Part shown: in pieces, positions 42,868 through 44,115 of the stretch
Position numbering within the stretch: position 1 is the first letter of the stretch
How the letters are laid out: every line of letters begins with the position of its first letter
Virus record (IMG/VR): IMGVR_UViG_3300010397_000013
Location: 1-56,196 of that record
Source: a virus
Strand: one strand, 5' to 3'
Length of the DNA stretch: 56,196 bases
Notes under the pieces: generated by a model
What the model was told of the DNA's origin: nothing
Seen by the model: the letters and a program-made list of their open reading frames with translations, nothing else
The model's database searches: none
Translations under genes and position numbers: made by a program

Positions 42868-43016
42868 CTGCCGGAAACTGCCGAAAAGTATATTTTCAGC
42901 ACTCAGTGCCAACCTGTTGACTGCTGCCTGCCGAAAACCTTACATAGTAAGTTTTCGGCAGTCGGCAGTCGGCACTGCCGATAATGAGAGTAAAAACACA
43001 AAAAGGTTTTCGGCAG
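42868..43016. repeat. Iteron-like CTGCCGAAAA repeats with a hairpin
   Basis: CTGCCGAAAA or its complement occurs at 42878-42887, 42928-42937, 42952-42961 and 43007-43016, with a near copy at 42868-42877. The two central copies face each other and form a 14-bp stem with one bulge (TGCCGAAAAC-c-TTAC, loop ATA). A tandem CGGCAGT repeat lies at 42956-42976. This lies between the minus gene at 42852 and the methyltransferase genes, so it may be an operator cluster or a replication-control site. Confidence 0.6.
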
Positions 43017-43027
43017 GTAATCACCCC

Positions 43028-43081
43028 ATGACCAAAACCCTGGAAATCTACGATCAAAACCAGAAAGGAAACCAACCTTGA
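43028..43081 (+). CDS. Leader-peptide-like frame duplicating a downstream gene start, 17 aa
   Basis: ATG 43028 reads MTKTLEIYDQNQKGNQP and stops at TGA 43079-43081, which overlaps the TTG of the methyltransferase and the ATG of the overprinted frame. Its first ten residues, MTKTLEIYDQ, are identical to the start of the 57-residue gene at 43942. It could couple translation of the overlapping genes or be a duplication scar. Confidence 0.5.
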   Translation: MTKTLEIYDQNQKGNQP

Positions 43082-43938
43082 ATGAGTTACACCTTTTTGC
43101 TGGATGCGGGGGAGGAATCATGGGCGGACTCCTTCTCGGCCATACCTGCGTCTGTGCTGTCGAGATTGAACCTTACCGCCGAAAAGTCCTGCTACAACGA
43201 CAACGGGACGGAATCCTGCCAAGGTTCCCTATTTGGGATGACGTGCGAACCTTCGACGGAACTGTATGGAAAGGAAATATTGACGTTGTGGCAGGAGGGT
43301 TCCCTTGCCAGAACATCAGTCCTTCCGGGGATCGCACAGGACTTAAAGGAGCCAAAAGCGGACTCTGGAAACACATGGCTCGAATCATTTGCGAAGTTCA
43401 ACCCGGTATCGTGTTCGTGGAAAATTCGGCAGCTCTCACTGTTCGAGGACTTGGAACCATTCTTGGAAATCTGGCCGAAATGGGGTTCGATGCGAAATGG
43501 GGAGTGTTGGGAGCTGCCGATGCCATCTGGCTTGAAGGAACTCCGATCTTTGATCACGAACGCCTTCGATGCTTTATCAAGGCTGCCAACACCAACCGTC
43601 TGCGGGAACTACAATCGAAAAGGAGCAAGCCCTACAAGCGGGGATGGACTAGCAACGGCACTCCGGCGCCTGCCAACTCCAACAGCGTCAGACAAAGGGA
43701 CAATTCGCCAACTTCCAAAACGAATAAAATACACAGCCAAGGGAACACTTCGCCATTTGAACGCAGACGGAATCGAGTCTCAATGCAGACTTCAACAGCA
43801 GATTGCGGCTGGTGGACCCATGAACCCGGAGTGGGTCGAATGGTTCATGGGATGGCCCATCGGAATGACCGCATTGCAGCCATTGGAGATGGCCAAGTTC
43901 CAGCAGTGGTTAAACTCGCATGGGAAACTCTCTCCTGA
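43078..43938 (+). CDS. C5 cytosine DNA methyltransferase, 286 aa
   Basis: Carries the C5 methyltransferase motifs: HLFAGCGGG (motif I, residues 5-13), GGFPCQNIS with catalytic Cys77 (motif IV), VFVENS (motif VI, 115-117), HERLR (motif VIII-like, 160-164), and RIAAIGDGQVPAVVKLAWET near the C-terminus (motif X). The target-recognition part (about 165-250) is Ser/Thr/Arg rich and not conserved-looking. The start is TTG 43078, sharing bases with the preceding stop. A second 287-codon frame lies fully within it in the +1 register. Probably protects or marks phage DNA against host restriction. Confidence 0.85.
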   Translation: MNELHLFAGCGGGIMGGLLLGHTCVCAVEIEPYRRKVLLQRQRDGILPRFPIWDDVRTFDGTVWKGNIDVVAGGFPCQNISPSGDRTGLKGAKSGLWKHMARIICEVQPGIVFVENSAALTVRGLGTILGNLAEMGFDAKWGVLGAADAIWLEGTPIFDHERLRCFIKAANTNRLRELQSKRSKPYKRGWTSNGTPAPANSNSVRQRDNSPTSKTNKIHSQGNTSPFERRRNRVSMQTSTADCGWWTHEPGVGRMVHGMAHRNDRIAAIGDGQVPAVVKLAWETLS

Positions 43939-43945
43939 ACAATGA
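43082..43945 (+). CDS. Overprinted +1-frame protein inside the methyltransferase gene, 287 aa
   Basis: ATG 43082 opens a second frame through almost the entire methyltransferase gene. It contains SSW/SWKIRQLSLFEDLEPFLE, GSMRNGECWELPMP, two LPTPT phrases (168 and 197), GDGLATAL, and NPEWVEWFMGWPIGMT (248-263). I recall these same motifs from widespread uncharacterised phage proteins, many of which overlap a C5 methyltransferase. Its TGA (43943-43945) overlaps the ATG of the next gene, supporting translation. Function unknown; the middle part, unlike the methyltransferase frame there, is motif-rich. Confidence 0.65.
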   Translation: MSYTFLLDAGEESWADSFSAIPASVLSRLNLTAEKSCYNDNGTESCQGSLFGMTCEPSTELYGKEILTLWQEGSLARTSVLPGIAQDLKEPKADSGNTWLESFAKFNPVSCSWKIRQLSLFEDLEPFLEIWPKWGSMRNGECWELPMPSGLKELRSLITNAFDALSRLPTPTVCGNYNRKGASPTSGDGLATALRRLPTPTASDKGTIRQLPKRIKYTAKGTLRHLNADGIESQCRLQQQIAAGGPMNPEWVEWFMGWPIGMTALQPLEMAKFQQWLNSHGKLSPEQ

Positions 43946-44115
43946 CAAAGACTTTAGAAATCTACGATCAAAAGACGGCTGAGATCCGAGCCTTTGAAAA
44001 GGAGGTTAAAGACCTTGGTGGTTATGTGACTGATTGCGGATACCCAAAGGACAACTCAACCCTCCAAATCAACGCCTGGATACCGGACCAACCGGAACTG
44101 GAATTGAAACCATGA
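43942..44115 (+). CDS. Hypothetical protein, 57 aa
   Basis: ATG overlaps the stop of the overprinted frame. MTKTLEIYDQKTAEIRAFEK, then VKDLGGYVTDCGYPKDNSTL and ends QPELELKP. Its first ten residues match the leader frame at 43028. A small acidic protein; role unknown. Confidence 0.6.
   Translation: MTKTLEIYDQKTAEIRAFEKEVKDLGGYVTDCGYPKDNSTLQINAWIPDQPELELKP

Follow-up and report, generated by a model that had tools for sequence, protein, structure and literature searches.

Staggered frames at the locus

The window analyzed here is a virus record of 56 kb, and the part of interest is a stretch of 868 bp at positions 43078 to 43945. Two long frames were found on the same DNA, one base apart, with the coordinates and frames that an earlier, sequence-only reading had given. 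Frame A encodes a predicted catalytic subunit of a C5-cytosine DNA methyltransferase. Frame B, one base out of phase with A (+1), covers the whole of it and is proposed below to encode the specificity subunit. Frame B has its own ATG, and its TGA stop (43943-43945) overlaps the ATG of the next gene at 43942, both features being present as previously described. The features of the locus are listed here, all by position in the window.

43064..43069, plus strand: Shine-Dalgarno (SD)-like AAAGGA, 8 nt 5' of the TTG of A and 12 nt 5' of the ATG of B (from the sequence)
43078..43084, plus strand: staggered double start TTGAATG, with the A start at 43078, a TGA in the B frame at 43079-43081, and the B ATG at 43082
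43078..43938, plus strand: frame A, TTG start, 286 aa; predicted C5-cytosine DNA methyltransferase catalytic (alpha-type) subunit (PF00145, phrog_363, and M.HhaI model match)
43082..43945, plus strand: frame B (+1), ATG start, 287 aa; putative specificity (beta-type) subunit (phrog_1008; selection in >200 loci)
43297..43311, plus strand: motif IV of A, GFPCQ, with the catalytic cysteine C77 at 43306-43308 (from the sequence; columns F75, P76, and C77 are invariant)
43582..43669, plus strand: LPTPT module 1 of B (LPTPTVCGNYNRKGASPTSGDGLATALRR), recognition-like; B varies less than A here, and in-frame counterparts occur in actinophage C5 methyltransferases
43627..43848, plus strand: residues 184-257 of A, predicted to be disordered, in place of the recognition small domain (AlphaFold pLDDT about 40-50)
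43670..43819, plus strand: LPTPT module 2 region of B (LPTPTASDKG..., from the sequence)
43820..43870, plus strand: motif IX-like segment of B (MNPEWVEWFMGWPIGMT), the most conserved part of B (hhalign to actinophage C5 methyltransferases)
43870..43935, plus strand: motif X and C-terminal helices of A (RIAAIGDGQVPAVVKLAWETL), with model helices at residues 259-271 and 275-285

The paired start is shared by most homologs. A start codon (ATG, GTG, or TTG) followed by AATG was observed in 82 of 104 homologous genes; the common motif, NTGAATG, contains the A start, a TGA in the B frame, and the ATG of B, 4 nt downstream of the A start. The first two residues of B, Met1-Ser2, are nearly invariant among the homologs. 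SD-like words were found at most 20 nt upstream of the A start in 69 of the 104 genes, compared with 23% at random sites. As the two starts lie 4 nt apart with an SD-like word upstream, one ribosome-binding site can serve both. A similar staggered start is found in the Thermus rpmH/rnpA pair.

The two genes upstream of the pair encode a primase/helicase and a resolvase-like protein, and the four small genes downstream have no PHROG match; no restriction enzyme was recognized among these adjacent genes (two upstream, four downstream). A 32-nt direct repeat (84%) is present on both sides of the A/B gene, at 43028-43059 and 43942-43973. A 17-codon ORF upstream of the pair repeats the beginning of the next gene downstream (MTKTLEIYDQ...), and the final TGA of this ORF overlaps the A start. 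The flanking repeat suggests that the A/B pair may have arrived as an inserted cassette, the start of the downstream gene being duplicated. Just 5' of the A/B gene, at 42919-43017, there are also inverted repeats, which are built on CCTGCCGAAAACCTT / AAGGTTTTCGGCAGG and are possibly a regulatory site or an origin.

Selection on the two frames and breadth of the pair

The open +1 frame of the window gene alone is only marginally unusual: shuffling of synonymous codons predicts 3.9 stops in this frame, and one was seen (P = 0.053); this stop is the TGA contained in the TTGA of the start. In a set of 109 different homologous genes, the +1 frame contains a mean of 1.67 stops compared with 5.41 expected, and nearly all of the remaining stops are located either in codon 0, as the TGA of NTGA, or at the C-terminus. 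The +2 frame of the same 109 genes showed no avoidance (14.2 stops compared with 13.1 expected). The homologs comprised 80 viral loci collected using frame A alone, 27 collected using frame B, and others from annotated phages. When B was used as a query in tblastn, the matches ran as a single piece through nearly the whole gene.

For homologs at 90-96% nucleotide identity, dN/dS was 0.30 in A, 0.41 in B, and 2.70 in the +2 frame, while the flanking-gene control gave 0.08 in the gene itself, 2.18 in its +1 frame, and 2.36 in its +2 frame; since the counts ignore the interaction between frames and the pairs share ancestry, these values are to be read as a contrast with the controls and not as an estimate of the strength of selection. 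Among close relatives (90-95% nucleotide identity), the differences fall on the three codon positions of A in the proportions 0.42/0.11/0.48, and the identity of the A protein (0.89) is lower than that of its DNA. Third positions account for 0.44-0.48 of the differences in the A/B gene, compared with 0.62-0.89 in neighboring genes, in which protein identity is as a rule higher than DNA identity, like in ordinary genes (few pairs in both comparisons with the neighbors).

Column entropies were computed on 87 non-redundant genes. Frame A is more constrained over motifs I-VIII, whereas B is less variable over most of the middle, in agreement with the earlier suggestion of a middle part constrained chiefly in the +1 frame; B is by far the most constrained at LNPTWVEWLMGWPIGWT, with 0.55 bits compared with 1.11 for A. 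Plain frame identity compared with shuffles is not diagnostic, because the +2 frame is likewise more alike than its shuffles. Taken together, the avoidance of stops, the purifying selection in both frames, and the conserved second start establish that the dual coding first proposed from the sequence is real and well supported. That the conservation of B is a by-product of that of A was rejected on the basis of the stops, the dN/dS values, and the controls.

The sequence-only reading had named a +1 frame broken at the rate of chance in homologs as the result that would refute dual coding; instead, both frames are full length at 223 of 251 distinct loci. Ten loci possess B only, 7 possess A only, and 11 possess neither, several of these 11 ending at contig ends. 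At four loci (L198, L211, L237, and L020), A is shortened or broken, mostly after about codon 165, and B is full length; these cases possibly reflect a real loss of the C-terminus of A or sequencing errors. With the B profile, the pair was detected in IMG/VR viruses as well as in bacterial genomes, in phages and prophages alike, and the phyla concerned include Proteobacteria, Acidobacteriota, Verrucomicrobia, Spirochaetes, Planctomycetes, Nitrospirae, and others. The pair was also found in contigs binned as archaeal. In the 159 loci obtained from scans of viruses and genomes with the B profile, A lies one base back in all but a few, for which the domain call is ambiguous, and no B-only gene was found among them. 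More distant enzymes from Lacticaseibacillus, Paenibacillus, Nodularia, and Mycobacterium phages have an A frame that is 27-34% identical; their +1 frame stays open from roughly codon 25-60 until close to the end and, Nodularia excepted, finishes with a recognizable motif of the LNPxWVEWLMGFPIGWT type. To our knowledge, same-strand overlaps of such length that are conserved over great distances have rarely been documented in DNA phages.

Nearly all the phage records inspected in the A/B family annotate A only or B only. In PP083311, MG592600, and OR683409, B alone is called, as a "hypothetical protein," and the enzyme is missed. With one frame annotated per record, either the enzyme or the probable specificity subunit is lost. 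An overlap that spans the full length of an enzyme gene and occurs in many bacterial phyla is therefore systematically missed by annotation.

Probable division of methyltransferase parts between A and B

Frame A matches PF00145 (E = 4e-24) and phrog_363 (E = 2e-55), and its AlphaFold model matches the fold of M.HhaI (E = 1.5e-13). Motifs I, IV (PCQ), VI (ENV), and VIII are found in one catalytic domain, and the motif content as a whole is I-VIII and X, motif X reading GD here where the usual form is GN. Neither the Pfam nor the NCBIfam match reaches the C-terminal third of the profile, the region aligned to PF00145 ending at profile position 216/324, and the PDB profile match to M.HhaI is limited to residues 15-177 of 327. 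In the AlphaFold model, pLDDT is >90 over most of residues 1-180, disorder is predicted over residues 184-257, or about 190-257 or 201-255 when delimited more narrowly, and the helices of motif X are well formed within 259-285. Neither a recognition domain nor motif IX was found in the A chain, as judged by the end of the Pfam match, the disorder, and the motif pattern. The sequence-only reading was thus wrong in crediting A with all catalytic motifs.

Frame B matches phrog_1008 (E = 2e-21), a family labeled "DNA methyltransferase"; residues 62-298 of the B protein at locus L048 match positions 33-282 of this profile with E = 6e-30. The phrog_1008 family also matches the in-frame C-terminal half (modules, IX, and X) of the single-frame actinophage enzymes L008, L299, and L300. 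Over 256 loci, the motif IX pattern was found in B at 243 and in A at 2, while the motif X pattern was found in A at 231 and in B at 3; as the regular expression was tuned by eye, and also fits Dcm and ORF13 of phage MM1, these counts are descriptive. The motif IX segment of B aligned (hhalign, 94-95%) to the in-frame stretch directly before motif X in actinophage C5 methyltransferases. Its alignment to E. coli Dcm is colinear and in the correct register but weak (hhalign probability 2.9%), and a sequence search of the PDB gave no match to this segment. Its place before motif X in the single-frame relatives and the shared LxPxxxxxxMG point to the EWLMGWP segment being motif IX.

The rest of B is less familiar. 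Its N-terminal half, which overlies motifs I-VIII, is conserved and has no counterpart in ordinary methyltransferases. B was set aside as a known fold, since the AlphaFold model (mean pLDDT 56.7) is too poor and the PDB gave neither a fold nor a sequence match, and as a known defense or anti-defense protein, since PADLOC gave no match; Pfam and NCBIfam gave none either. A poor model of the isolated protein would fit a subunit that takes up its fold on its partner.

The number of LPTP modules per B varies from 0 to 5. Among related actinophage methyltransferases, these modules are located now in frame A and now in frame B: at L288, L292, and L299, B contains LLPTPRATDGTKGGPNQRGSSGDLMLPSAV or a near-identical sequence, and at L291, L295, and L298, A contains close forms of it. 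They look as if they had been moved between frames by frame-changing indels. At two loci (L290 and L293), the enzyme carries an insertion whose +1 frame encodes LAYVAGLIDGEGCV..., a sequence similar to LAGLIDADG homing endonucleases. Phage methylases with HNH insertions out of frame have been described (PMC11855218).

The role of B had been left between controlling and partnering the enzyme. Partnering is favored because B carries motif IX and recognition-type modules that A lacks, while no regulatory evidence was found in support of a controlling role. A and B probably form a heterodimeric, split C5 methyltransferase resembling M.EcoHK31I, with A as its alpha and B as its beta subunit. In the mechanism that we propose, a single SD would bring ribosomes to the gene, and translation would start at the TTG at 43078 (A) or, 4 nt further on, at the ATG at 43082 (B); with a common SD and alternative adjacent starts, A and B would be made together. 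A would be the catalytic subunit, providing SAM binding, the PCQ cysteine, ENV, and motif X, with a predicted disordered loop in the position that the recognition domain occupies in a normal C5 methyltransferase. We infer that B binds A and supplies motif IX in trans, along with LPTP-type modules that would act as target-recognition domains and are probably the parts that read the target. The holoenzyme would most likely methylate the phage genome, giving protection from host restriction.

This alpha and beta arrangement would account for the frame-B proteins filed as "DNA methyltransferase" without a catalytic motif; on this view, many of the phage "orphan C5 methyltransferases" should appear inactive when only the annotated frame is expressed. 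It would also provide a clear case in which to study how DNA came to be shared between two parts of an enzyme. More tentatively, and with the odds leaning slightly against it, the pair could represent a whole class of phage C5 methyltransferases whose recognition half is encoded by the catalytic gene itself, in the +1 frame; the LPTP modules would be exchangeable and act in trans, and NTGAATG would fix the stoichiometry of the subunits. On the same reading, exchangeable modules acting in trans would allow the methylated sequence to be changed, and the disordered region of A would tolerate any such change.

B might instead be a real but independent protein, such as a regulator or an anti-defense factor, that merely shares the DNA of the methyltransferase. 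It is under selection of its own, its conserved N-terminal half is unlike any methyltransferase part, it has no Pfam or PADLOC match, and the short +1 ORF of MM1 overlies a methyltransferase that is complete in itself; however, the motif IX-like and LPTP parts that B carries are missing from A and stand in frame in other C5 methyltransferases, and B was never found away from the A frame in the 159 B-profile loci, which makes an independent protein unlikely. It is decidedly improbable that B is expressed only as part of a frameshift product, a +1 shift from A to B (and perhaps back) yielding a single-chain methyltransferase. The order in the DNA (catalytic part, modules, IX, and X) would indeed be that of a single-chain enzyme if read as A, B, A, and single-chain relatives exist, but B has its own start just after that of A, the TGA of the B frame that precedes it is kept in most of the close family, the N-terminal half of B is conserved, and two opposite shifts would be required to reach motif X.

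There is also a very slight chance that B is untranslated, with the openness and similarity of the +1 frame resulting from codon usage, constraint at the DNA level, or the conservation of A. The marginal P value of the window gene alone would fit this, as would the part of the frame similarity that is due to shared ancestry, given that the +2 frame also lies above its shuffles. This reading is already close to refuted by the avoidance of stops in the +1 frame only, over 109 genes, by the frame-specific dN/dS values with their controls, by the conserved start with its SD, and by a middle that is less variable in B than in A, as well as by the homology of B to in-frame parts of enzymes.

Relation to known split and overlapping methyltransferases

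M.EcoHK31I (YGGCCR) is a C5 methyltransferase made of two polypeptides, with motifs I-VIII and X in the large subunit and motif IX in the small subunit; its recognition domain is predicted to be in the large subunit, which counts against B as a recognition subunit (PMC3404938). The A/B pair shows the same split of motifs, the two systems being likened by description and not by sequence. The small polypeptide of M.EcoHK31I, of about 176 aa, is shorter than B, and Lee, Kam and Shaw are said to have described in 1995 that its coding region lies inside the large gene in a different frame. Unlike M.EcoHK31I, which belongs to a restriction-modification system, the A/B pair has no restriction enzyme recognized in the scanned genes beside it; moreover, B spans the whole gene and starts 4 nt after A, and the conservation of the recognition region lies in B.

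Overlapping C5 methyltransferase ORFs have been noted in streptococcal phages. A survey of Streptococcus thermophilus phages from 2017, which included phages of the 5093 group, calls it "striking" that two such ORFs overlap totally and traces the overlap to phage MM1 and transposon Tn5252; its passages on the overlap assign no roles to the two ORFs (PMC5601072). As in the A/B pair, ORF14 of MM1 lies in the +1 frame of ORF13, and it is weakly related to phrog_1008. In contrast to A/B, ORF13 is complete (Pfam 1-321/324, motif IX present) and ORF14 is short. Over this complete ORF13 (L305, 1501-2658), ORF14 encodes SLSDILEEEVDERYFLS, a segment that other C5 enzymes usually carry in their main frame. 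In GenBank, both ORFs are annotated for MM1 and likewise for Paenibacillus phage Likha. The Likha genes 51/52 form a nested +1 pair like A/B, both annotated as DNA cytosine methyltransferase, and gene 52, a phrog_1008 member (E = 6e-72), closes with the type of motif seen in B, LNPDWVECLMGFPIGWT. The B start of Likha is internal (position 1685, with A at 1501) and not beside the A start as it is here.

In the M.AquI-type split C5 methyltransferases, as in gp76/gp75 of Mycobacterium phage Stasia and 067a/067b of Arthrobacter phage ArV1, two polypeptides also correspond to one C5 enzyme. In the split pairs of Stasia (L307, 1432-2572) and ArV1 (L308, 1429-2899), the gene for the N-terminal half stops after motif VIII, and the +1 gene for the C-terminal half contains the modules, IX, and X. 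This C-terminal half is, like B, a phrog_1008 protein in the +1 frame; unlike B, it carries X as well as IX, and the genes overlap only partly (26 bp in Stasia and 266 bp in ArV1). Both halves are annotated as "DNA methyltransferase" in these phages, each without essential motifs, and the C-terminal half is best understood as the part of the enzyme that the first gene lacks. The multispecific C5 methyltransferases of Bacillus phages serve in anti-restriction and possess several exchangeable recognition modules. There, one chain in one frame holds both the modules and the catalytic part; the analogy with A/B would be functional only.

General literature searches returned nothing on the overlap, and one Streptococcus phage paper reports it (PMC5601072). 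No account was found of a widespread, conserved, dual-coding subunit pair with staggered starts, although most subscription papers and REBASE lay outside the search, so this missing account is weak evidence of novelty. Given M.EcoHK31I, the streptococcal phages, and the GenBank records of MM1 and Likha, neither the overlap nor split C5 enzymes are new. What the A/B pair adds to these systems is its breadth, the geometry of its starts, the evidence for dual constraint, and the assignment of roles, and it is best described as a widespread variant of the split C5 methyltransferase.
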